Source: an uncultured Salinisphaerales bacterium (lineage in GTDB: Bacteria > Pseudomonadota > Gammaproteobacteria > Nevskiales > CAJXLF01). Taken from it: a stretch of 64,000 bases of DNA. Position numbers and translations under genes: made by a program. Shown here one piece after another: positions 18,053 through 32,087 of this stretch; the first letter of the stretch is position 1, and each line of letters starts with the position of its first letter. The notes below the pieces were generated by a model that worked only from the letters and a program-made list of their open reading frames with translations, was not told the origin of the DNA and made no database searches. The stretch lies in contig CAJXLF010000002.1 in the NCBI GenBank assembly GCA_913055805.1, positions 310,001 to 374,000 of the forward strand. The letters run 5' to 3'.

Positions 18053-21000
18053 ATGAACATAAATCAGGGATTCAAGGCATTCACAGGCGGGCTGTTGGCC
18101 CTGGGGTTGTTGGTGTCGGTGCTGCCGGCGCAGGCGGCGGATTTCACGGTCGATCAAAACGACAATGACTGCGGCGACTTGATCTGCGACCTGGTCAGCG
18201 CCATCGAAACCGCCAACACCAACGGCGAGGAAGACAGCATCGACCTGAACGGCAACACCATCCTGCTCACCGTGCCTTACGCCAACGGCGGTGACATGGA
18301 TAGCGGCCTGCCGACCATCGGCTCGGACAACGGCGGCGGCGGCGGTACGGACAAGAGTCTCATCACCATCAAAAACGGCACCATCAAACGGGCCAAATGC
18401 CAGGATGGCTCGGACGCAAGCGACTGCTCAAGCGCAGGTGGCAATACCGGTGCATTCCGCCTTCTTGCCGTGAACTTCGATGCCCGTCTCACGCTGGACC
18501 ACATCGCGCTGACAGGTGGCCAGGTATCTAGCGGTGGTGCTTTGTATGTCAATGGCGCGTCCAGCGTCATCAACATCATTCAGAGCAGCATCTCGAAAAA
18601 TTCGGCTACAGGGGGCAACTACGGTGGCTACGGCGGTGCTGTTTACGTTGCAAACGGAAAAGTTGCTTTCTCCAACAGTGCGCTTTCGGACAATACGGTC
18701 GCCACTGCCTACGGTGACAAACTTGGCGGTGGCGTCTATGTGTCCGGAGGCACGGTTAGCTTTATCAATAGCACGCTCTCTGGGAATGCAGGCGTCGCAG
18801 GTGGACCTCAAAGTGGAGGTGGCGGCATATACGTGCATGGTGGAAGCGCAAGCTTTATTAACAGCACCGTGTCCAATAACGATGCAATCTATGGTGGTGG
18901 CATCGCCGTATACGGTAGTGCCAAGGTCAGCCTGCTTAATACCGTTATCGCAGAGCAAACCGCCGGCAGTGATTGCTATGCGACTGTTGGGGGCACCTTG
19001 ATTTCACTTGGTCACAACCTTGATAGCGATAACAGCTGCAGTCTCAATGCTTCGGGCGATGTGTCGAACACCAACCCACAACTCGGCCCGCTCACCGATA
19101 ACGGCGGCCCCACGCACACCCATGCACTGTGCACGGCCAGTAGCGTACCGGATGCAGCTTGCACCGGTGCCAGCCCGGCGCTAGACGCCGGGGATGAAAC
19201 CCGCTGCCCGACCACCGACCAACGCGGCGAGCCGCGGCGGGGCCTGAGTTGCGACATCGGCGCGTTTGAAGCCACTCCGGCCAGCGTGCTTACGGTGAAC
19301 AGCCTGGCCGATCCGGGCGACGGCACTTGCGATGCCACGGAATGCACCCTGCGCGAGGCGGTGACGGCGGCCAATGCCGATGCCGACAGCAGCCAGATCG
19401 AATTTGCGACCGGCCTCACCGGCACCATCCCCCTCAGCAACGGCTATCTGCCCGTGACCGCGCCGCTGGCGGTGAACGGCCCCGGCCGCGATCTGCTCGT
19501 TATCGACGCGCAAAACAACTCGCGCATTTTTGGTGACCGCAGCCCGGGCACCGCCAGCTACACGCTGCGTGGCCTCACCGTCACGCGCGGCAATGGCGGC
19601 GGCGGCAGCAGCACACGCGGCGGCGCGCTGGCCGGGTGGACCGGCACTACCCTCCGGCTCAACGACGTGCTGGTGAGTGATTCCCGTACGGACCGGGGCG
19701 GCGGTGTCTATACCGATGGCGACGCCTGGCTGCTGAACAGCCTGGTGCGCGGCAACTTCGCCTCGATATCCGGCGGCGGTATTGATGTAGGCGGCACCCT
19801 GTATCTGATCAACAGCGGCCTGGTGGCGAACACCGCAGAGTCGGCCACGACCGTGGGTGGCAGCGGTGGAGGGGGCAGAGCCGCCACCCTGTATGCCAGC
19901 AACTGCCTGATCCAGGACAACCAGGCGCTGGGCAACAGCAGTGGGGGTGGTGACAGTGGCGGATTCTCTCCCGGTATTGCAGAGATGACCGGCTGCACCC
20001 TGCGTGGCAACCGGGCCACCGATAAAGGTGGTGCTCTTACATTTTTACTTGGCGGCACCTCCACTATCCGCAACTCGACCTTTGTCGATAATGAGGCAGA
20101 CGGGGCCGGCGGCGTCCTGTTTCTGTCAGCTAGCTCGCTTAATATCGTGCAGTGCACCCTGAGCAACAATGACGCGGGCAACCTGGCAGTCGCAGCGTTG
20201 CCATCTGGTGGCAGCTTAATCTTCGACCGCAGCCTGCTGGCCGGCAACAGCTCGGGCTGCAGTGGTAATGTCAGCGCCACCCATACCCTCAGCAGCGGCG
20301 AGGGCGGTTGCGGGGCCACCACGGCGACCACCCTGGCCGCCCTCAACCTCGGCCCGCTGGGCGATTACGGCGGCCCCACGCCCACCATCCCGCTGCTGCG
20401 CAGTAGCGACCCCAGCGGCAATGGCATGGACAGCGCCGCCCTCGACGCCGTGGGCTGCCTGAGCGACATCAACAAAGACCAGCGCGGCGTGAGCCGCCCG
20501 CAGGGCGGCAACTGCGACATCGGCGCCTTTGAACGCGAAGCCAGCGGCACGCTCGCCATCGACTTCGGCGATGCGCCGGATGCCAGCGTGAGCACCAGCA
20601 ATCCCAAGGGCTACCCGGTGACGATTGCCGATAGCGGCGCCGGGCATCTGCTGGGCGGGCCTGCGCTTGGCGTGACCGACCCGGACGCCGAAGCCGATGG
20701 TCAGCCCAATGAAGCCGCCGATCTGGACGGCGCCGCCGAGGAAGACGGCCTGGGTACGCCGGTGAACCTCACAGTGGGCAACAGCGGCAGCATTCCGGTC
20801 ACCGCCACGGGCGGCTACCTCAGCGCCTGGCTGGATATTAACCGCGATGGCGACTGGGACGACGACGGCGAACAGCTTGCCAACGGCCTGGACATGAGCG
20901 GCGGCAGCGCCACGCTCACGCCCGACCTCTTCACGGCCAGCGCCGGTGCGACTTACCTGCGCCTGCGCGTCTGCTCCGTCGCCGCGCAGTGCAATACGCC

Positions 21001-22348
21001 GCGCGATGTCGCCGCCGACGGCGAGGTGGAAGATCATCTCGTGGAACTTGAATCCGGCTCGGTGGACTTTGGCAGCGTGGTTACGGGCGACAGTAATGAA
21101 CAAACCTACACCATCACCAACAACACGGATTCGGCGGTAACGCTGGAAGGCTTCATGGTCAGCGGCGCGGGCTACAGTTTCAGCACAGACTGCGGCGCCA
21201 CACTGGCCGCTGGCGATAGCTGCGAGGTGACGATCACCTACAACCCAACCCAGAGCGGCACGGACAGCGGCACGCTGAGCTACACCGCCAATGGCGTTGC
21301 GCAAACGGTGGCACTGAGCGGCGTCGCAATTGACGCTCTGGTAACGCTGAGCCTGAGTGGCTCGCCGTTTGACGAAGACGGTGGGGTGGCGACGGTTACC
21401 GCCATGCTGTCTGATGCCAGCACGCAGGATGTGACCGTGAGCCTGGGCTTTGCCGGCAGCGCCACCAACGGCACAGACTACACTCCCAGCGGTACGCAGA
21501 TCGTGATTCCGGCCGGTGCGCTGACTGCCAGTATTGATCTGCTGGGCAATGACGATGATCTGTTTGAAGGCAATGAAACCGTGATTGTGTCGATTACCTC
21601 TGTGACCAATGCCACGGAGAACGATGAGCAATCCGTCACTGCCGAAATCACAGAGGACGACAGTCTGCCCGAAATCACCCTGAAGAAAGCCTCGGGTGGC
21701 GTCACCTCAGCCAAAGTCGGCAACAAGAACGTGGTGATGCTGGCCGTGGATGTAAAAATCCCCACCTACCCCGAAGCCCTGAATGTGAGCAGCCTTGACC
21801 TCACCGCTGGCGGCTCCGGCCATGACCAGCGCGATGTTTCCAAAGTCCAGCTCTGGCTGGACGATGGCGATGGCAAGTTCAGTGCCAGCAAGGACACCGC
21901 GCTGGCCTCCGGCAGCTACAGCAAGGACAACGGCACCCTCAAACTGACCAAGGACGTCAGCCTGGCCGCAGGCAAGACCCATCGGCTGTTTGTGACCTAC
22001 GACTTCGGCAGCAGCCTGGCCGCCCTGGCCCTGCCGATGATGGCTGGCCTGCCGCTGCTGGCCGGGCTGGGGTTGATTGGCTTCGGTGGCCAGAGGCGGC
22101 GTGCACTGGCGCTGTGCCTGATCCTGCTGTCACCCATCGCCCTCACCGGCTGCCCCGGCGCCCCGGAAGGCGCGGCCGCCTATGTGGCCTACAAGGAAAT
22201 CACGGATGACGACGATGACGATGATGCGGTACAGACCGAAACCTTCCGCGTGGCGCCAAGCGCAGTCACCGCCAGTTTCCCGTCTGTAGAAAAACCCACC
22301 GTCACCGGCCTGCCGATTGTGGGAGACACGGTGACGGTGAGTGAGTGA
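18053..22348 (+). CDS. Giant secreted CSLREA/choice-of-anchor surface protein, paralogue 1
   Basis: 1431 residues. Signal peptide ending AQA-AD; a degenerate CSLREA-like start; right-handed beta-helix repeats rich in Gly and Asn; a first choice-of-anchor Q motif (DQRGEPRRG...CDIGAFE, about 385-405); a clear CSLREA domain (about 416-450, CTLREAVTAAN); more beta-helix; a second choice-of-anchor Q; a GEVED domain; a choice-of-anchor D-like domain (about 1000-1095); a Calx-beta domain (about 1095-1205); and a last beta-sandwich. A cassette interrupts that sandwich: helix 1325-1345, RRR 1348-1350, a second helix ending in lipobox LTGC (Cys1367), Asp 1385-1391. Beta strands resume to the end. Likely a cell-surface adhesin or stalk protein; function unproven. 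Confidence 0.85.
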   Translation: MNINQGFKAFTGGLLALGLLVSVLPAQAADFTVDQNDNDCGDLICDLVSAIETANTNGEEDSIDLNGNTILLTVPYANGGDMDSGLPTIGSDNGGGGGTDKSLITIKNGTIKRAKCQDGSDASDCSSAGGNTGAFRLLAVNFDARLTLDHIALTGGQVSSGGALYVNGASSVINIIQSSISKNSATGGNYGGYGGAVYVANGKVAFSNSALSDNTVATAYGDKLGGGVYVSGGTVSFINSTLSGNAGVAGGPQSGGGGIYVHGGSASFINSTVSNNDAIYGGGIAVYGSAKVSLLNTVIAEQTAGSDCYATVGGTLISLGHNLDSDNSCSLNASGDVSNTNPQLGPLTDNGGPTHTHALCTASSVPDAACTGASPALDAGDETRCPTTDQRGEPRRGLSCDIGAFEATPASVLTVNSLADPGDGTCDATECTLREAVTAANADADSSQIEFATGLTGTIPLSNGYLPVTAPLAVNGPGRDLLVIDAQNNSRIFGDRSPGTASYTLRGLTVTRGNGGGGSSTRGGALAGWTGTTLRLNDVLVSDSRTDRGGGVYTDGDAWLLNSLVRGNFASISGGGIDVGGTLYLINSGLVANTAESATTVGGSGGGGRAATLYASNCLIQDNQALGNSSGGGDSGGFSPGIAEMTGCTLRGNRATDKGGALTFLLGGTSTIRNSTFVDNEADGAGGVLFLSASSLNIVQCTLSNNDAGNLAVAALPSGGSLIFDRSLLAGNSSGCSGNVSATHTLSSGEGGCGATTATTLAALNLGPLGDYGGPTPTIPLLRSSDPSGNGMDSAALDAVGCLSDINKDQRGVSRPQGGNCDIGAFEREASGTLAIDFGDAPDASVSTSNPKGYPVTIADSGAGHLLGGPALGVTDPDAEADGQPNEAADLDGAAEEDGLGTPVNLTVGNSGSIPVTATGGYLSAWLDINRDGDWDDDGEQLANGLDMSGGSATLTPDLFTASAGATYLRLRVCSVAAQCNTPRDVAADGEVEDHLVELESGSVDFGSVVTGDSNEQTYTITNNTDSAVTLEGFMVSGAGYSFSTDCGATLAAGDSCEVTITYNPTQSGTDSGTLSYTANGVAQTVALSGVAIDALVTLSLSGSPFDEDGGVATVTAMLSDASTQDVTVSLGFAGSATNGTDYTPSGTQIVIPAGALTASIDLLGNDDDLFEGNETVIVSITSVTNATENDEQSVTAEITEDDSLPEITLKKASGGVTSAKVGNKNVVMLAVDVKIPTYPEALNVSSLDLTAGGSGHDQRDVSKVQLWLDDGDGKFSASKDTALASGSYSKDNGTLKLTKDVSLAAGKTHRLFVTYDFGSSLAALALPMMAGLPLLAGLGLIGFGGQRRRALALCLILLSPIALTGCPGAPEGAAAYVAYKEITDDDDDDDAVQTETFRVAPSAVTASFPSVEKPTVTGLPIVGDTVTVSE

Positions 22349-22562: not shown

Positions 22563-22838
22563 ATGATCAGTGAAACCAGCGCAGTTAACTTTCGCCAGAA
22601 GCTGGGCGACATGCTCAGTCGCGTGCAATACCGCCACGACAGCATCGTGATTAATAAAGATGGCAAGCCGGTGGCCGCGCTGGTTGATGCGCGACTGTTT
22701 GAGCGTATTCGGCGCATGCAGGGGCGGTTCGACGCCCTGAGTGAGCGGATTGAAAAGGGGTTCTCGAGCATTCCCCAGGAACAGGGCCTTGCCGAAATCG
22801 ATGCCGCCGTGGCCGACGACCGTCGCTCCGAAAAATAG
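22563..22838 (+). CDS. Phd/YefM-family antitoxin
   Basis: 91 residues. N-terminal Phd fold (ISETSAVNFRQKLGDMLSRV, then IVINKDGKPVAALVDARLFERI), a DNA-binding dimer, followed by a charged helical tail that would cover the toxin. A cggag ribosome site precedes the ATG. The toxin gene starts 12 bp downstream. Part of a type II toxin-antitoxin module lodged between the two giant paralogues. Confidence 0.88.
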   Translation: MISETSAVNFRQKLGDMLSRVQYRHDSIVINKDGKPVAALVDARLFERIRRMQGRFDALSERIEKGFSSIPQEQGLAEIDAAVADDRRSEK

Positions 22839-22850
22839 CAGACGGCTTGA

Positions 22851-23285
22851 ATGTCTGAGCTGAAAGTGGTGCTCGACACCAATATTTTACTATCTGGCAT
22901 TGCTTATCCGGGCAGCCTGCCCGGCAAAATTCTGGCGGCATGGAGATCCGGGTCGGTTGAAGTGGTTCTTTCTGACTTCATCCTGGATGAGCTGCGACGT
23001 GTGCTTCCACGGCTTGAGCACCGACATGGCCTTTCGGCTTCGGAAATTGAAGATCTGGTGGATATCCTGTCCATTCAGGCTGAGCTTGTGGCGCCAAACG
23101 CCGCCAGTGAGGTGAAAATCCGGGATGAGCAGGACAGACCCGTTCTGGGCACCTTGCTGACGGCTCTGCAGGCCAGTGGCGCCCGGTACCTGATCACGGG
23201 TGACAAAGACCTGTTGGCGCTGGCCGCCCAGTATCCTGTGATTACAGCCGCTGATTTCTGGGCAGAACATGGAGGGCTGCTATAG
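22851..23285 (+). CDS. PIN-domain toxin (COG1569 type)
   Basis: 144 residues, a complete PIN domain with the acidic metal site: Asp9 (VVLDTNILLSG), Glu47 (LDELRR), Asp95 (DEQDRPVL) and Asp118/120 (LITGDKDLL). Such proteins are Mg-dependent ribonucleases held inactive by the antitoxin encoded just upstream. No truncation is visible, so the pair should be functional. Confidence 0.88.
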   Translation: MSELKVVLDTNILLSGIAYPGSLPGKILAAWRSGSVEVVLSDFILDELRRVLPRLEHRHGLSASEIEDLVDILSIQAELVAPNAASEVKIRDEQDRPVLGTLLTALQASGARYLITGDKDLLALAAQYPVITAADFWAEHGGLL

Positions 23286-23490: not shown

Positions 23491-26400
23491 ATGACCATAA
23501 ATCAGGGATTCAAGGCATTCACGGGCGGGCTGTTGGCCCTGGTGTTGCTGGTGTCGGCGTTGCCGGCGCAGGCGGCGGATTTCACGGTCAATCAGAGCGA
23601 CAGTGATTGCAGCGACTTGGTCTGCGACCTGGTCAGCGCGATCGAAACCGCCAACGCCAGCGCCGAAGATGACGTGATCGACCTCGGCGATCAGACAATC
23701 ACCCTGACATTAGCCTATGACAACGGCGGTGATATGAGTACCGGCCTGCCGACTATCGTCGACGCCGCGACTGCGGGCAGGCTCAGGGTACAGAACGGCA
23801 GCATCACGCGCAGCAGCGACGGCGGCACACCGCAGTTCCGCCTGCTCTATGTGGCTGAAAATGCCGATCTCAGTCTGGATCGGGTCACGCTGAGCAACGG
23901 CCACGCGCCAGACGGAGCGGACGGTGCCAATGGTTCGTCTTCTGGGGGGGCAGGCGATGAGGGCGCTTCTGGCGGCGCCATCTATAATCGCGGCAACCTG
24001 AACCTGGCTTATTGCCGTCTGGAAAACAATCAGGCGGGCGATGGCGGCGCCGGCGGCAGCGCTACTGCCAGTAATTCCGGCGGCGGTAGTCTCAGTGTTT
24101 CTGGGGGGGTAGGCAATGAGGGGGGGCATGGCGGTGCGATCTATTCCGCCGGCAGCGGCGATCTGCGCATCATGCACAGTACTTTCATCAATAACCGTGC
24201 GGGTGACGGCGGTAACGGCGGCGCGGCCACGGCCACCGGCACCGCTGGTGGCGATGTTCAAGCGACTGGTGGTGTCGCATCGCGCGGCGGGTACGGTGGT
24301 GCGATCTATTTTGATCAGGGTTCCCTGAGCATTCTTCACAGCAGTTTGACCGGCAATCGCAGCGGGAACAACGGTACCGGCGGCCAGGCCGAAGCAACTG
24401 TCAACGGCGGTACATCAGGTGCGACCGGGGGCGCAAGCGAAGGGACAGCACAGGGGGGCGGCGCAATCTATGCCAGGGCAGGCGACAAGGTGATTAGCCA
24501 CAGCACCATTGCCGGCAATCTGGCGGGTAACGGCGGCGCCGGCGGTACGGCTACAGCTACCGGCGGCTCTTCTGCGCGAGCTGTCGGCGGGGCTGGCAGT
24601 GCTACCGGCGATGGCGGCGCCGTTTTCTCCGGCGGTGGTACTCTGCACATCACCAACAGCACCCTCACCGGTAATCGCGGTGGCAATGCCGGGGGCGGCG
24701 GCAACGCCACCGCCAGCACCACCAGCGGTGATAGCCAAGCTATTGGCGGCGCCGGGGGTACGGCGCATGATTCGGGCGGCGCGATTACTGCCAGCGGCAC
24801 AGACTTCAGCCTGGTCAACAGCACCGTTACGGACAACCGGGCGGGCGATGGCGGCGCCGGGGGTACGGCCACCGCCACCGGCGGCACTTATGATTTTCCG
24901 GGCCATATTGTGGACGACTCTGGTGCTTTTGCAGGCGCCACCGGCGGCGTCGCTGGCCGGGGATACCGGGGCGGCGACGGTGGCCAGGCCGTTGCCGTTG
25001 CCGGCAATGCCGCCAGCGGCAGCAACGCTGATGGAGGCTTTGCCTCTGCGACTGGCGGCAAAGGCGGCGCCGGCCGCCAACCGGGTGCGGGGGGCATGGC
25101 CACAGCCACTGCCGGCAGTGGCGACGGGACGGGGGACAACGGCAATACTTTTGAGGATGATGGCGCGGACGGCAATCTTGAAGAAGTACCGGGCAGCCTC
25201 TATCTGGCGCAAGGTACTGCCGGTCTCAACAACAATATCCTCAGCGGCGATGCCGGTTTTTGTAAATTGAATTCTGTGACCCCCACCGGTACCAGCAACC
25301 TCGCCACGGACGATTCCTGCGGAACGGGCATTCTCGTCAACGGCACGCCAGTTGGCGACCCTGCCGATCTCATGCTTGATTCCGGTGGCCTGCAGTTCAA
25401 CGGCGGCCCCACGCAGACCATCGCCCTGCTGCCCGGCAGTCCGGCCATTGATGCGGCTGGTGATTGCGCCAGCTTGATGCCGCCCATCACCACCGACCAG
25501 CGCGGCGTGCCGCGGCCGCAGGATGCTGCCTGCGACATCGGCGCTTTCGAGTTGATCACCACCCCCATCCTTGACTTTGGCGATGCGCCGGCGGGTTACC
25601 CGGTCACCCTGGCCGAGAATGGCGCGGCGCATGCCTTGGGTGGCCCGTCGCTGGGTGCTATCGGCCCGGATGCCGAGGCGGATGGCACGGCCTCACCCGA
25701 CGCTGATGCTGACGATGTCAATGCGACGCCCGATGATGAAGACGCGGTGCCAATGATCCTGGCCGCAGGGGCTACCGTCAGCATCCCGGTGAGTAATGCC
25801 AGCGTGGGCACCGTCGGCAGCGCATGGTTGAATCTGAATGACGACGATGATGACGACACTGACTGGAAAGATGCTGGCGAAGTTCTGGTAAGCGATGCTT
25901 CTGCCGCAGGCGGCAGCTTCGATATCACCGTGCCGGCCAAACCGGGTGCACACATCATGCGGCTGCGCACCTGTAACAACACAGGCAATTGCAACCTGCC
26001 CACCGGCATCGCTCTGGATGGCGAGGTGGAAGACCATCTGGTCACGATCCAGCCCACCGTGACCCTGAATGTGGATATGAACACTATCAGTGAGGACGGT
26101 GGCGTGGCCATGGTGACGGCATCCCTGAATACCGCCAGGAAAAGCCGGGATGTCACTGTCACCCTGGGTATTGATGCTGCCTCCACGGCTGGCGCCTCGG
26201 ATTACACACCCCCGGCCGATCTGACCCTGAGCATTCCTGCTGGAGAACTCATCAGCAACGCGCTCAGTTTCACGGCCCTGCCCGATGAAATTGATGAGCC
26301 GGATGAAACCCTGATCGTGAATATCGCCTCGGTAGACAATGCAGTTGAAGCTGTCGACCAGCAACAGACCATCACCATTGCCGACAACGACGGCCCGCCG

Positions 26401-27405
26401 GTGCTGACCGTTACCGGCAGCAGCGCCAGTGAAACCGACGGCACACTCAGTTTCACCGTGACCAAGGGCGGCGACAGCCCCACGCCCGTGACGGTGGACT
26501 ATGCCACTGCGGATGGCAGTGCCACGGCCGGCAGTGACTACACCGCCAGCAACGGCAGCCTGAGCTTTGCGCCGGGCGAACTGATGCAAACGGTGTCCGT
26601 GCCGCTGACCAATGATGCGCTGTTTGAAGATAATGAAACCCTGACCCTGACACTTAGCAATGTGTCGGCCAATGCCAACATCGGCACGGCCAGTGCCACC
26701 GGTACCATTACCAGCGAGGATGCCCGGCCGGTGGTCACGATTACCAGCGCACCGGGCGCTGCTAGCACGGCGAAGGTTGGTGACAGCAACGTAGTGATGC
26801 TGGCGGTGGATGTGGCCGTGCAGGCCTATCCGGAGAAGCTGAATGTGACCCGACTGGAACTCACCGCAGCAGGCTCCGGCCATGACCGCAATGATGTCAC
26901 CCGGGTACGTCTGTGGAAGGACAATGGCGATAACAGCTTCTCCACCGCGGATACCGAACTGCTTACGGGCGTGTTTGACGCTGACAACGGCAAGCTGACC
27001 TTTACCGGCAACGAGATGTTTGATGCGGGCAGTACCACCCGGCTGTATGTGACCTACGACTTCAATACCTCGCTGGCCGCCCTGGCCCTGCCGATGATGG
27101 CCGGCCTGCCGCTGCTGGCCGGACTGGGGTTGATGGGTCTGGGTGGGCGAAGAAGGCGTGCACTGGCGCTGTGCCTGATCCTGCTGTCACCCATCGCCCT
27201 CACCGGCTGCCCCGGCGCCCCGGAAGGCGCGGCCGCCTATGTGGCCTACAAGGAAATCACGGATGACGACGATGACGATGATGCGGTACAGACCGAAACC
27301 TTCCGCGTGGCGCCAAGCGCAGTCACCGCCAGTTTCCCGTCTGTAGAAAAACCCACCGTCACCGGCCTGCCGATTGTGGGGGATACGGTGACGGTGAGTG
27401 AGTGA
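23491..27405 (+). CDS. Giant secreted choice-of-anchor surface protein, paralogue 2
   Basis: 1304 residues. Signal peptide and first 60 residues nearly identical to paralogue 1. Then about six Gly/Ala-rich beta-helix repeats of roughly 45-50 residues (core like NSTLTGNRGGNAGGGGNATA, about 130-560), a choice-of-anchor Q motif (DQRGVPRPQ...CDIGAFE), a GEVED domain (DGEVEDHLV), two Calx-beta domains (about 850-965 and 970-1075) and the same interrupted final beta-sandwich, with lipobox Cys1240 and Asp7. The last part of the gene (27157-27380) is base-for-base identical to giant gene 1. It lacks the choice-of-anchor D domain and second CSLREA of paralogue 1. Probably a surface fibre or adhesin. 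Confidence 0.85.
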   Translation: MTINQGFKAFTGGLLALVLLVSALPAQAADFTVNQSDSDCSDLVCDLVSAIETANASAEDDVIDLGDQTITLTLAYDNGGDMSTGLPTIVDAATAGRLRVQNGSITRSSDGGTPQFRLLYVAENADLSLDRVTLSNGHAPDGADGANGSSSGGAGDEGASGGAIYNRGNLNLAYCRLENNQAGDGGAGGSATASNSGGGSLSVSGGVGNEGGHGGAIYSAGSGDLRIMHSTFINNRAGDGGNGGAATATGTAGGDVQATGGVASRGGYGGAIYFDQGSLSILHSSLTGNRSGNNGTGGQAEATVNGGTSGATGGASEGTAQGGGAIYARAGDKVISHSTIAGNLAGNGGAGGTATATGGSSARAVGGAGSATGDGGAVFSGGGTLHITNSTLTGNRGGNAGGGGNATASTTSGDSQAIGGAGGTAHDSGGAITASGTDFSLVNSTVTDNRAGDGGAGGTATATGGTYDFPGHIVDDSGAFAGATGGVAGRGYRGGDGGQAVAVAGNAASGSNADGGFASATGGKGGAGRQPGAGGMATATAGSGDGTGDNGNTFEDDGADGNLEEVPGSLYLAQGTAGLNNNILSGDAGFCKLNSVTPTGTSNLATDDSCGTGILVNGTPVGDPADLMLDSGGLQFNGGPTQTIALLPGSPAIDAAGDCASLMPPITTDQRGVPRPQDAACDIGAFELITTPILDFGDAPAGYPVTLAENGAAHALGGPSLGAIGPDAEADGTASPDADADDVNATPDDEDAVPMILAAGATVSIPVSNASVGTVGSAWLNLNDDDDDDTDWKDAGEVLVSDASAAGGSFDITVPAKPGAHIMRLRTCNNTGNCNLPTGIALDGEVEDHLVTIQPTVTLNVDMNTISEDGGVAMVTASLNTARKSRDVTVTLGIDAASTAGASDYTPPADLTLSIPAGELISNALSFTALPDEIDEPDETLIVNIASVDNAVEAVDQQQTITIADNDGPPVLTVTGSSASETDGTLSFTVTKGGDSPTPVTVDYATADGSATAGSDYTASNGSLSFAPGELMQTVSVPLTNDALFEDNETLTLTLSNVSANANIGTASATGTITSEDARPVVTITSAPGAASTAKVGDSNVVMLAVDVAVQAYPEKLNVTRLELTAAGSGHDRNDVTRVRLWKDNGDNSFSTADTELLTGVFDADNGKLTFTGNEMFDAGSTTRLYVTYDFNTSLAALALPMMAGLPLLAGLGLMGLGGRRRRALALCLILLSPIALTGCPGAPEGAAAYVAYKEITDDDDDDDAVQTETFRVAPSAVTASFPSVEKPTVTGLPIVGDTVTVSE

Positions 27406-27674: not shown

Positions 27675-27872
27675 ATGAAAGTATTTGCTGAAAGCCTGGC
27701 ATGTTTTCTTTTATTGCTTGTCAGTGCGCTGAACGAGCCGGCCTGGGCCGGCATGATAGATCCGGCGCCGGTGCCAGCCCCGGTTGCCGGCGCAGTCGGT
27801 CCCTGGGGCCTGCTTGCAGCCTGTGTGGTTTATGCGGGTTACCGTCTGGTCAGATATTTACGGCGGCGATAA
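27675..27872 (+). CDS. Tiny secreted protein consisting of signal peptide plus sorting tail
   Basis: 65 residues: N-terminal signal peptide (ending AWA-G near residue 25), a short Pro/Ala linker (DPAPVPAPVAGAVGP), one hydrophobic helix (WGLLAACVVYAGY) and a basic end (RLVRYLRRR). Apart from the linker it is just the three-part C-terminal tail recognised by exosortases. It lies 20 bp before the exosortase gene, so it is a likely minimal substrate or marker protein. No database family is claimed. Confidence 0.6.
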   Translation: MKVFAESLACFLLLLVSALNEPAWAGMIDPAPVPAPVAGAVGPWGLLAACVVYAGYRLVRYLRRR

Positions 27873-27892
27873 TCCAGCCATACGGACCGTTC

Positions 27893-28744
27893 ATGCGGAA
27901 TCTGGCAAAAGCGGCCTGGCTGCCCGGCATGTCGCGCAGGGAGCTGCTGTTCTGGCTGGCTGGCGGCGTGCTCGCGGTTCATTTTCTCAATACCCTGGAT
28001 CTGACCTCACCGGCAACCCTTTTGCTGAGTCTGTTTTCTGCAAATCTTGTCTATTGCTTTGCCTGCTTTGCCGTGATTCAGCGGCTGCGGCAAAGCAACG
28101 CCGCGATAGCAGCCACCGCGCCGGAAACCGGGTTGACTCTGCTGGGCATGCTGGCCACCGTGGGAGTCAGTCTGTTTGCCAATGCCTATGCTATTGGCAT
28201 CATGAGTACGCTGCTGTCCCTGGTGCTGATCTGCCATTACCGCAGTGACCCTTATCTGCGCACCGCCGGCATGATCCTTGCCGCCATTTCCGTGCATGTG
28301 CTCTGGGCGCCGTTGCTGTTTGTTCTGTTGCAGCCCATGTTGTTGGTAGCCGATGCCGCTGCGGTATCACTGTGGCTGTCGTTTCTGCGGCCCGATATCA
28401 CACTGCAGGGGCAGACTTTCGCCGCACCCGGCGGACATGCCATTGCATTAATCGGCGCCTGCTCTTCGTTTCACAATATTTCAATTGCGATATTGGCTTA
28501 TGTTTCCGTGGCCTTGTTGCTGCGCAAGCAGTGGCTGCCTGCCGATGTGCTGTGGCTGGCGGCCATTGTGGTCATCATGGTCATGTTCAATGTGTTGCGC
28601 ATTGGGCTGGTGGCCTGGAGCAGGGAGGCGTATCTCTATTGGCATGATGGCAGTGGCAGTCAGTGGCTGGCGCTGTTGCAGACGCTGGTGCTGTTTGGCG
28701 TCAGCTTCTGGGGTGCCAACGCTGTCAGGCGTTCCGCTGCATGA
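27893..28744 (+). CDS. Exosortase/archaeosortase family transpeptidase
   Basis: 283 residues, eight or so membrane helices. The family's catalytic triad is visible in order: Cys190 (GACSSFHNIS), Arg236 (FNVLRIG) and His251 (YWHDGSGS). Exosortases cleave the C-terminal tail of secreted proteins at the membrane and pass them on for surface attachment. The start ATG at 27893 lacks a good ribosome site; the gene follows the 65-aa protein by 20 bp. The next gene overlaps by ATGA. No polysaccharide genes of the classical PEP-CTERM type lie nearby. The subfamily is not assigned. Confidence 0.8.
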   Translation: MRNLAKAAWLPGMSRRELLFWLAGGVLAVHFLNTLDLTSPATLLLSLFSANLVYCFACFAVIQRLRQSNAAIAATAPETGLTLLGMLATVGVSLFANAYAIGIMSTLLSLVLICHYRSDPYLRTAGMILAAISVHVLWAPLLFVLLQPMLLVADAAAVSLWLSFLRPDITLQGQTFAAPGGHAIALIGACSSFHNISIAILAYVSVALLLRKQWLPADVLWLAAIVVIMVMFNVLRIGLVAWSREAYLYWHDGSGSQWLALLQTLVLFGVSFWGANAVRRSAA

Positions 28745-29286
28745 GCCGTCTGTGGCTGCGGCTGTTTCTGGCGGCATGCCTGCTGGCTTCCATGCTGTTG
28801 CACGCGCGCGCCATGCGGGCTGAGCAGCAATTGATAGCTTCCTTTGACATCTATCAGGCGATAACCCGTGTCTTGAGTGCGCATGATGTCGAAATCCTGC
28901 GCAGTGGCTGGCCGCGGCAAACGGTTCAGCCAAGGACGGTGTACTTCCAGCGCAGGGGCTGCAGTGCGGCCTCGGTAGCGATGCCGTTTCATATTACGAC
29001 CGATGCCTCTGCCAAAATTCTCAACATTGAGCTGGCTGACCGCAGGCAGACAATAAAGTATCTGGAAAAAAGCTGGCGCAAACAGCAGAGTTTTGAGCTC
29101 ATCATGGACTGGACGTCCAATGCCATGCTCGCGGCTGCCGGGCGTTCGCCTTATGCCACAGTCCGTCAGGCGATTCTGCTGATCGAGCCTGCACAATGCA
29201 GCGCAGGGCCTGATCCGGTGGATTGGGCGCAGGTGTGGCGTTTGCCTGTCCCATTGGTGTCTCTGCTGTCAGGCGCAATGACATGA
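28741..29286 (+). CDS. Secreted or membrane-anchored partner of the exosortase
   Basis: 181 residues, overlapping the exosortase by four bases and the next gene by four. An N-terminal signal anchor (LWLRLFLAACLLASMLL) is followed by a soluble domain of about 150 residues containing two Cys (RRGCSAAS, PAQCSAG) that could pair outside the cytoplasm. The position matches EpsI-like accessory proteins of exosortase loci, but I do not see a clear EpsI signature. Unknown function; probably required with the exosortase. Confidence 0.6.
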   Translation: MSRLWLRLFLAACLLASMLLHARAMRAEQQLIASFDIYQAITRVLSAHDVEILRSGWPRQTVQPRTVYFQRRGCSAASVAMPFHITTDASAKILNIELADRRQTIKYLEKSWRKQQSFELIMDWTSNAMLAAAGRSPYATVRQAILLIEPAQCSAGPDPVDWAQVWRLPVPLVSLLSGAMT

Positions 29287-30116
29287 TGCTCGACAGCTGG
29301 TGGTGGTTTTTTCTGTTCTGGGGCCTGCTGGCATTGCTGGCGAGTGCCGAGTGGCAGGCCGCAAGTCCGGCCCGGTCGCTGCTGCGCCGCGGACGCTGGC
29401 CAGCGAATCTGGGGCTGGGATTTGCCAACGGTCTGCTGGTGGCGTTGTTGCCAGTCAGTGTGCTTGCGATTGCGTTCTGGGCTGAGCAGAAGTCGCTGGG
29501 GTTGTTTAACATTCTGGAGCTGCCCGTTGTGCTGGTGGTGGCCGCAACGCTGGTGTTGCGCAGCTTTGCCCAGTATCTGCAGCACCGGCTGATGCATCGC
29601 GTGCCGCTGTTGTGGCGTGTGCATCGCGTGCATCATTGCGATCCGCGTTGCGACGTGACTACCGCATTGCGCTTTCATCCACTGGAATATGCCGTCGTTC
29701 TGCCCCTGCTGGGCGGCCTGACCCTGTTGGGTGGGCTCGACCCTTACACATTGGCCGTATACGAAATCGTCGAGTCGATTTTCGGTCTGGCGACGCACGC
29801 TTGTCTGCAGTTGCCCGGCAGGTTGGAACGCGTGCTGCGTCTGGTATTTGTTACGCCCGCCGTGCATCAGATTCATCATTCCATTGACCGCGATGAATCG
29901 GAAATGAACTATGCCGCCGTTTTTTCGTTGTGGGACCGGCTGTTTGGCAGCTTCCAGGCGTTACCCTCTGTGCCCATGGATGAACGCAGATTCGGCTGCG
30001 ATCAGATAGCGCCGGCGCAGGCGTCCAGTTTTGACCAGCTGATGGATATGCCCTTCAGATCCCGGGCTTATACAGTCGGGCAGACAGCCGGACATTTGGG
30101 TGGAGACGGCGGCTAA
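29283..30116 (+). CDS. Sterol desaturase/fatty acid hydroxylase superfamily membrane enzyme
   Basis: 277 residues from the ATG at 29283 (overlap ATGA). Four to five membrane helices and the three His clusters of the di-iron site: HRLMH, HRVHH and HQIHH. Such enzymes hydroxylate or desaturate lipids using oxygen. Its place at the end of the exosortase unit suggests modification of a lipid involved in the anchored surface layer, but the substrate cannot be read from the sequence. The end FSLWDRLFGSF is typical of the family. Confidence 0.82.
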   Translation: MMLDSWWWFFLFWGLLALLASAEWQAASPARSLLRRGRWPANLGLGFANGLLVALLPVSVLAIAFWAEQKSLGLFNILELPVVLVVAATLVLRSFAQYLQHRLMHRVPLLWRVHRVHHCDPRCDVTTALRFHPLEYAVVLPLLGGLTLLGGLDPYTLAVYEIVESIFGLATHACLQLPGRLERVLRLVFVTPAVHQIHHSIDRDESEMNYAAVFSLWDRLFGSFQALPSVPMDERRFGCDQIAPAQASSFDQLMDMPFRSRAYTVGQTAGHLGGDGG

Positions 30117-30239: not shown

Positions 30240-32087
30240 ATGACAGTAAAGACAGCGGGGATCACCTCGCCGATTACGGCCTATCTTGAAGAATTGCATG
30301 CCAGGTTCAAGAGCGAACGCGGCGGTGCAGTAGCGGACTATATTCCCGAACTTGCCAAGGTGGATGAAGATGGCTTCGGTATTGCCGTGGCGACCATTGA
30401 CGGCCATGTGTATGAGGCCGGTGATTCGCAGCGTGAGTTCACCATCCAGTCGATGTCCAAGCCCTTTACTTATGGTCTGGCCATTGCCGACCAGGGGCTG
30501 GATACGGTGCTGTCCAGAATCGGAGTGGAGCCGACCGGCGATGCCTTCAATTCCATCAGCCTGGAAGCGGAAACCGGCCGCCCGCTGAATCCCATGATCA
30601 ATGCCGGCGCCATTGCCGCCGCTTCCATGGTGGCGGGCCATTCCCAGGAGGACCGTAACCAGCGCCTGCTGGCCACCTATTCCATGTATGCCGGGCGCCC
30701 GCTGGCAGTGGATATGGCGGTATTCGAGTCGGAGTCTGAAACCGGCCACCGCAACCGCGCCATTGCGCACATGCTGCGCAACTTCGACATTCTGCAGGAC
30801 CCGGACTCAGCACTGGATGTGTACTTCCGCCAGTGCTCGGTAAATGTGACCAGCCGCGACCTGAGCCTGATGGCGGCGACGCTGGCCAATAACGGCACAC
30901 ATCCGATTACCGGCGATTCGCCGATCAGCCCGACGCATGTGCAGCAGGTGTTGAGCGTGATGACCACCTGCGGCCTGTACGACGCGGCCGGCGACTGGTT
31001 CTTTCACGTGGGCCTGCCGGCCAAGAGCGGCGTGGGCGGCGGTATTTTCGCGGTGCTGCCCGGCCAGCTCGGCATCGGTGTGTATTCGCCGCGCCTGGAT
31101 GAACACGGCAACAGCGTGCGCGGGCTGGCGGCGTGCAAGACGATGGCGTATGACCTGGGCTTGCATGTACTCAAGACCAGCAAGCCGGCCGCCTCCGCCG
31201 TGCGTTCCGCCTATAACGTGAGCCAGGTGCGTTCCAGGCGTGTACGCAACAATGCGGACCGGGACGTGCTCAAGGCGCATGGCCACAGCATCCGCGTGTT
31301 TGAACTGCAGGGCGATGTGTTCTTCGCCACCCTGGAGCCGCTGGTACGGCAGGTGGTGGAAATGGGCGCCGAGCTGGAAGTGGTGATTCTGGATCTGCGT
31401 CGTGTCAGCTCGATTGATCCGACGGCTTTTGCGCTGTTCAAATCCCTGATTCAACAGGTGGAAGGTTCGGGCAAACGCCTGCTGCTGTCCTCAGTGGGCG
31501 CGCATACGCGCCTTATGCGTTACCTGGAAGAACAACAGGCCAGCGATGAAATCTCCCGCAGCATGCTGTTCTGCCCCGATCTGGATGTGGCCCTGGAGCA
31601 TGGCGAGGACATGCTGATCAGCCGCCAGGGTAAACGCAAGGTCGAAAAGGTTTCGGTCGCGGAGAATCTGCTCTGTCAGGGCCTGAGCGAGCACCAGGTC
31701 AGCGCACTGGAGGCCCTGCTGGAAGACGCGCACTTCAAGTCCGGTGAGTACATCGTGCACCAGGGCGATGCCGCCAATGCCCTGTTTCTGCTGCTGGAAG
31801 GCGAAGCTACCGTGGCCATCGGCGCCAATGGCGGCAAGCGCAAGCGCCTTTCCACCATCACCGCAGGCATGCACTTTGGCGACGTGGCGGTATACGCCGG
31901 CGGCGTGCGCTCGGCAGACGTGGTGGCCAATACGCCGCTGCACTGCAAGGCCCTGAGCCAGGAAGCCTTCGCCCGACTCAGCCAGACCCACCCGGACATC
32001 AGCATTGTCATTTTGCAGAACCTGCTGAAAACCTCCAGCCAGGTCATTGGGCGGCTGAACAAGGAGATGGCTGCCTACGTGGAGTAG
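30240..32087 (+). CDS. glsA: Glutaminase fused to STAS and cyclic nucleotide-binding domains
   Basis: 615 residues. Residues 1-315 are a serine-dependent glutaminase with the Ser71-x-x-Lys74 pair (QSMSKPFTYG) and NPMINAGAI and SGVGGGIFAVLP motifs. Residues about 350-440 are a STAS domain (VILDLRRVSSIDPTAFALF), and about 477-600 a cNMP-binding domain with an intact Arg in the cassette (FGDVAVYAGGVRSADVVA). It converts glutamine to glutamate and ammonia; the added domains suggest allosteric control by a nucleotide and by a STAS partner. A gtggag site precedes the start. About 120 bp without features separate it from the desaturase gene. Confidence 0.92.
   Translation: MTVKTAGITSPITAYLEELHARFKSERGGAVADYIPELAKVDEDGFGIAVATIDGHVYEAGDSQREFTIQSMSKPFTYGLAIADQGLDTVLSRIGVEPTGDAFNSISLEAETGRPLNPMINAGAIAAASMVAGHSQEDRNQRLLATYSMYAGRPLAVDMAVFESESETGHRNRAIAHMLRNFDILQDPDSALDVYFRQCSVNVTSRDLSLMAATLANNGTHPITGDSPISPTHVQQVLSVMTTCGLYDAAGDWFFHVGLPAKSGVGGGIFAVLPGQLGIGVYSPRLDEHGNSVRGLAACKTMAYDLGLHVLKTSKPAASAVRSAYNVSQVRSRRVRNNADRDVLKAHGHSIRVFELQGDVFFATLEPLVRQVVEMGAELEVVILDLRRVSSIDPTAFALFKSLIQQVEGSGKRLLLSSVGAHTRLMRYLEEQQASDEISRSMLFCPDLDVALEHGEDMLISRQGKRKVEKVSVAENLLCQGLSEHQVSALEALLEDAHFKSGEYIVHQGDAANALFLLLEGEATVAIGANGGKRKRLSTITAGMHFGDVAVYAGGVRSADVVANTPLHCKALSQEAFARLSQTHPDISIVILQNLLKTSSQVIGRLNKEMAAYVE

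Follow-up and report, generated by a model that had tools for sequence, protein, structure and literature searches.

A two-helix cassette with an internal lipobox within the predicted C-terminal beta-sandwich of giant bacterial envelope proteins

The two giant envelope proteins encoded in the stretch of DNA analysed here (64,000 nucleotides from an uncultured Salinisphaerales bacterium; below, the window) carry an internal cassette of two helices placed just before the last strands of a predicted C-terminal beta-sandwich, and the second helix ends in a lipobox. We favour, with modest confidence, the explanation that Lgt and LspA process the cassette as an internal lipoprotein signal, after which the lipidated peptide would remain bound to the giant chain through the split domain. 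The sorting tags known so far sit at protein ends, and it is for cysteines at the N-terminus that the lipoprotein enzymes are known. No description of an internal lipobox splitting a domain was found in the open-licence literature; the single parts have been described before, their arrangement has not.

Results

Layout of the two giant proteins

Profile and sequence searches identified giant envelope protein 1 (1431 aa; 18053..22348, plus strand) and its paralogue, giant envelope protein 2 (1304 aa; 23491..27405, plus strand), which has the same C-terminal layout. Protein 1 consists of a Sec signal peptide, a beta-helix with choice-of-anchor Q, CSLREA, GEVED, ASH/choice-of-anchor D, Calx-beta and the split C-terminal beta-sandwich. 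The beta-helix, choice-of-anchor Q, GEVED and Calx-beta are common to both proteins and ASH/choice-of-anchor D is found in protein 1. By sequence reading, both N-termini have a Sec-type signal peptide that ends in AQA and contains no lipobox. Both window proteins and seven homologues exceeded the cut-off of NF041518 (choice-of-anchor Q), a domain present in every window-type member scanned; the family name refers to varied anchors.

The C-terminal region of protein 1 is made up of consecutive plus-strand segments. The body of the beta-sandwich (residues 1206-1318; 21668..22006), delimited by an AlphaFold2 (AF2) model and a GH33 fold match, ends in VTYDF (1314-1318). It is followed by the first membrane helix region (residues about 1320-1347; 22010..22093), whose PEP-CTERM-like shape is apparent from the sequence and from weak cassette-profile matches, by RRR (1348-1350; 22094..22102), expected to be cytoplasmic, and by the second helix with its lipobox (1351-1367; 22103..22153), in which LTGC occupies 1364-1367 and Cys1367 is invariant. 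A variable linker containing seven Asp (1368-1394; 22154..22234; 7-46 aa in homologues) then leads to the last beta-sandwich strands (1395-1431; 22235..22345), recognised as strands by AF2 and by a conserved GLP..G. This tail comprises ETFRVAPSAVTASFP from residue 1396 and VTGLPIVGDTVTVSE at the stop. In paralogue 2 the body extends through VTYDF (26728..27063, plus strand) and the cassette and tail strands, with Cys1240, follow directly (27064..27402, plus strand). An earlier note on this DNA had described this series of elements in protein 1 and the same layout around Cys1240 in paralogue 2, and each element lies where it had been placed.

The lipobox cysteines are thus residue 1367 of 1431 and residue 1240 of 1304, far from an N-terminal position. 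When all six frames were searched with a regular expression for a basic residue, an h-region and a lipobox Cys (frames of at least 200 aa), the window yielded these two sites and one more in a minus-strand frame.

The paralogues share 96% identity across their last 113 residues. From the second helix to the stop dS is 0-0.11, as compared with about 1.0 in the domain body, and this near-identity of the DNA indicates that cassette and tail strands were recently exchanged as one 3' module. The 5' ends are about 83% identical across 270 bases, with similarity extending upstream, the 3' ends are near-identical and the middle has diverged, a mosaic that suggests gene conversion at both ends. The DNA between the paralogues probably contains a toxin-antitoxin module: a PIN-domain protein is encoded at 22851-23285 (PF13470), and a short ORF of the Phd/YefM-like antitoxin type, recognised by eye, precedes it at about 22563-22838. 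Further along, positions 30240-32087 encode a single 615-aa protein that fuses glutaminase, STAS and cyclic-nucleotide-binding domains.

Fold of the split domain

Residues 1206-1431 were modelled with AF2 from an alignment of seven natural sequences, one of them the window paralogue, and a single model was produced. Confidence (pLDDT) was mostly 75-94 in the body, below 50 in the cassette and about 86-89 in the tail strands, which occupy model residues 190-203, 211-213 and 222-225. Structural alignment with VIA-align matched model residues 2-226 to sialidase residues 22-189 (Z 13.1, 141 aligned residues, 2.7 A), and ten sialidase entries scored Z above 12. The matched region is the contiguous N-terminal beta-sandwich of GH33 sialidases. 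As the body has only 113 residues and 141 were aligned, the tail strands necessarily fall within the match, and the joint match of body and tail to one contiguous beta-sandwich argues that they are parts of one domain. In the model, with strand pairing read from AF2 confidence and the structural alignment, the cassette flanks form a single beta-sandwich domain, as the earlier note had proposed, and are not assigned to separate domains.

The N-terminal domain of GH33 sialidases has the same fold, uninterrupted, at about 8-12% identity, and the match carries no implication of sialidase activity or of a catalytic relation. No significant sequence relative of the split domain was found in the PDB. 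A search for uninterrupted sequence relatives, of the kind that the earlier note had suggested, gave only partial matches, and the best intact one (L082 in G643) covers the body and leaves out the tail. Because these matches are partial, the one-domain claim stands on the structure and on the fibronectin III cases.

Cassettes within fibronectin III domains

The combination of helix, basic residues, helix and lipobox also interrupts a C-terminal fibronectin III (Fn3) domain midway, in two proteins of G092 and one of G111. With the cassette left out, the three proteins scored 25.5, 34.7 and 27.4 bits against PF00041 (cut-off 25) and all three matches were near-full, running from about profile position 10-17 to 80-81. 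Scanned in their natural form, two of these sequences matched the C-terminal part of PF00041 alone (profile 48-81 and 52-80). The profile of the window-type domain showed no similarity to the Fn3 profile. In the Fn3 cases the cassette has been inserted into a domain that already existed. The recurrent choice of a site just ahead of the final strands of a terminal beta-sandwich would be hard to explain unless splitting of the domain matters. Directly upstream of the Fn3-split gene in G111 lies a gene (L138, 2601-7445) for a large protein whose tail, a plain TM-RRK, is shaped like the first helix of the cassette and has no lipobox.

Distribution and conservation

A cassette-profile scan combined with reading found the layout in 19 of 75 genomes of the window's order. 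Matches better than 1e-15 came from 15 of the genomes scanned. The weaker matches in G021 (3e-10, decayed-looking) and in the long frames of family f2 (G028, G030 and G765; 4e-7 to 1e-5) displayed the same arrangement when read. Additional hits in G009 and G039 were ordinary N-terminal lipoproteins. Named carriers include Abyssibacter sp. and uncultured Salinisphaerales MAGs. The layout is also present in G097, which belongs to another order of the same class. Across the class the full cassette is rare, with a scan of 303 genomes detecting it beyond the order only in G092 and G097 and another query adding G111. Altogether the layout occurs in five taxonomic families, in most cases in a domain of one kind, and two further families have the Fn3 version, a recurrence that argues against chance. 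An assembly or frameshift artefact is ruled out by intact frames with the layout in many genomes. The internal cassette that the earlier note described is accordingly found in other proteins, in more than one kind of domain.

The lipobox cysteine is kept in 29 of the 29 cassettes read (19 tabulated and 10 more), which come from seven taxonomic families, and no other position of the second helix is as well conserved. It sits about 18-23 residues past the arginines, a small residue precedes it in every case (29/29) and the h-regions end in typical lipoboxes (LTGC, LAGC, LTAC or LSAC). The surrounding helix drifts, with identity between RR and Cys down to 8/19 in one pair; the RR pair is near-invariant in A6. 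The lipoprotein-signal shape that the earlier note had seen in the second helix is therefore well formed and conserved. Asp occupies position +2 in only one of the 19 tabulated cassettes, and most thus have no copy of the best-known inner-membrane retention signal.

Some homologue linkers are rich in Asp and Asn, others are collagen-like repeats of Gly-Pro-Gln (PF01391, 32.7 bits), and such variability would be expected of a flexible spacer. In L075, L076, L007 and L154, collagen-like Gly-Pro-Gln/Val repeats join the lipobox Cys to the tail strands. The tail strands themselves keep the GLP..G motif and are coding and under purifying selection (dN/dS 0.03-0.5 in the homologue pairs tested), which speaks against the unrelated or non-coding extension that the earlier note had considered for the region past the last Asp. 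L153 (G021) is an exception, in which cassette and tail are intact, an in-frame stop lies upstream and no body is recognisable; this copy is probably decaying. In L155 and L156 (G030 and G765, family f2) the cassette and GLP tail accompany a body that is not recognisably the same domain, possibly a third domain context for the cassette.

Resemblance to sorting tails and candidate partner enzymes

The cassette passes no known sorting-tail model. In a class-wide scan, its first half drew weak partial matches, mostly from C-terminally placed PEP-CTERM tails whose last residue lies 0-4 positions short of the stop codon, and most matches to its second half were N-terminal lipoprotein signals. These half-by-half matches suggest that the cassette couples a helix resembling a sorting tail with a lipoprotein signal. 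Among the PF07589 and NCBIfam PEP-CTERM models, PF07589 had no match in the genome and the window helix alone reached at best 9.9 bits against a cut-off of 20.7. TIGR03901 (MYXO-CTERM) gave 6.7 to 12 bits, below its cut-off of 20, and the cassette tail had no match to the GlyGly-CTERM family TIGR03902.

A divergent exosortase-family protein is encoded beside paralogue 2 (27701..28744, plus strand; TIGR04178, 21.5 bits, or 25.3 in the genome search, against a cut-off of 23), its gene beginning about 300 bases past the end of that paralogue. It may be a partner of the first helix. The gene is nearly private to the window organism, with one weak relative among 369 Gammaproteobacteria genomes. It opens a run of genes whose ends overlap (27701-30116), in which a 181-aa ORF and a gene resembling fatty acid hydroxylases come after it. 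TIGR04178 proteins are present in G000 and some f6 carriers (G019, G023 and G033) and absent from the carriers G002, G005, G007, G009, G011, G015 and G043. As most cassette carriers have none, we rejected an exosortase as the general partner.

Rhombosortase was likewise rejected as a general partner, since its profile distribution does not follow the cassette: it exceeded the cut-off in the f3 carriers, bar one incomplete genome, and did not do so in G000, f1 or any f6 carrier. Of the 'sorting-like' character claimed for the cassette in the earlier note, the resemblance of the first helix to PEP-CTERM tails stands, but neither sorting enzyme accompanies the cassette consistently. Comparison of 15 homologue neighbourhoods and the window revealed no neighbour gene common to cassette loci, and a non-exhaustive search found no separate genes for body and lipoprotein tail.

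Proposed mechanism and alternatives

According to the explanation that we favour, an N-terminal Sec signal would export the giant chain, the first helix would serve as a transfer stop with RRR remaining in the cytoplasm, and the second helix would re-export the last 65 residues and be recognised as a lipoprotein signal by Lgt and LspA, enzymes that every carrier should have. Cleavage by LspA before Cys1367 would produce a lipidated N-terminal cysteine on a peptide bearing the last beta-sandwich strands, and one precursor would become two chains through its internal lipoprotein signal. Because the tail strands belong to one domain with the body on the giant chain, the two chains would remain together without a covalent bond. 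The big protein would thus be tethered by lipid at its C-terminal end, an attachment that lipidation of the N-terminus could not provide by itself. To our knowledge, LspA is not established as acting on a lipoprotein signal that has another helix in front of it.

LspA cleavage would leave the first helix, RRR and the spent signal helix at the end of the giant chain. Since the chain would still finish in a two-helix hairpin, a point that the earlier note does not consider, the lipopeptide would be needed as an anchor only if the hairpin were removed. Delivery to the outer membrane would require such removal by a membrane protease; otherwise the complex would stay in the inner membrane. The spent signal could be trimmed and an intramembrane protease could then cut the first helix, handing the giant chain over to the lipopeptide. 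In the window organism, the exosortase-like gene beside paralogue 2 may remove the hairpin of the giant chain.

The conserved lipobox makes it likely that the second part is lipidated and cut and, given lipidation and cleavage, the single predicted fold makes it highly probable that the chains stay paired. Release of the giant-chain body from the inner membrane is doubtful, and its final location is one that we infer. Taken as an anchoring principle, the proposal is in our judgement evenly poised: the lipoprotein pathway, acting on an internal signal, would generate a two-chain protein that bears its lipid at the C-terminal end and is held by a split beta-sandwich, and this solution would have arisen at least twice, in domain families unrelated to each other. 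The interpretation offered in the earlier note is partly supported.

The AF2 and GH33 evidence fits an uncut chain equally well, with the two helices as a permanent inner-membrane anchor, the domain completed in cis and the lipobox unused or its cysteine otherwise employed; furthermore, no processing enzyme could be linked to the cassette. Such a hairpin needs no lipobox, yet the cysteine and the small residue ahead of it persist in all cassettes read despite the drift of the helix, and the second half acts as a lipoprotein signal in profile searches, which leads us to consider this alternative unlikely. Sorting might also proceed in two steps, the exosortase-like protein (27701-28744) cutting the first helix and LspA the second, so that both cassette ends would be removed in the window genome. 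Consistent with this are the position of the gene close behind paralogue 2 and the PEP-CTERM resemblance of the first helix; moreover, because PF07589 detects no PEP-CTERM protein in the genome, the substrates of the exosortase are otherwise unaccounted for. However, we judge two-step sorting to be quite improbable, given the lack of a TIGR04178 protein in most cassette carriers, the almost private nature of the window exosortase and the missing PEP-type motif ahead of the first helix.

A history without function, in which a sorting tail fused to a small downstream lipoprotein gene and was spread by duplication as a passive relic that happens to split the domain, strikes us as very improbable. 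The sequence past the cysteine contributes strands to the domain that precedes the cassette, which a fused foreign gene would not do, and the insertion within existing Fn3 domains and the purifying selection on the tail also count against it, even though the succession of a sorting-tail-like helix and a lipoprotein-like signal, and the exchange of the 3' module between the window paralogues, would suit such an origin.

Discussion

If lipidation and cleavage at the internal lipobox are confirmed, near-universal Gram-negative enzymes would place a lipid on the C-terminal end of giant adhesin-like proteins without sortase-type transpeptidation. The cassette would then provide a natural split-domain pair and an extra anchor for choice-of-anchor proteins, and the annotation of internal lipoboxes would change, as signal predictors examine N-termini. 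If instead the cysteine is not cut, the cassette would be an odd variant of a hairpin anchor.

With bacterial lipoprotein signals handled by Lgt, LspA and Lnt, the cassette shares the basic residues, an h-region of usual length, the lipobox, the invariant cysteine and a flexible linker. In contrast to such type II signals it is placed internally (over 1200 residues precede it in the window proteins), follows another membrane helix and lies inside a folded domain. PEP-CTERM tails of the exosortase system (TIGR02595, PF07589) have in common with it a helix rich in small residues followed by RRR, but the cassette has no PEP motif, is not C-terminal, scores below all cut-offs and is usually found without an exosortase. 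Nearest in concept are MYXO-CTERM tails, processed by myxosortase, which provide C-terminal anchoring through a helix and an Arg cluster, with an intramembrane protease and a cysteine for which acylation by an Lgt-like enzyme has been proposed; this cysteine precedes the helix, in an inverted topology and without a defined lipobox (PMC11980579). In the cassette, by contrast, the cysteine follows the second helix in normal lipoprotein topology. The GlyGly-CTERM/rhombosortase system (TIGR03902) is likewise built on a three-part tail of Gram-negative surface proteins. In pilin donor-strand complementation, a strand from another chain completes an immunoglobulin-like fold. The split domain described here differs in that a single gene encodes both pieces and the lipid would be on the donor piece.
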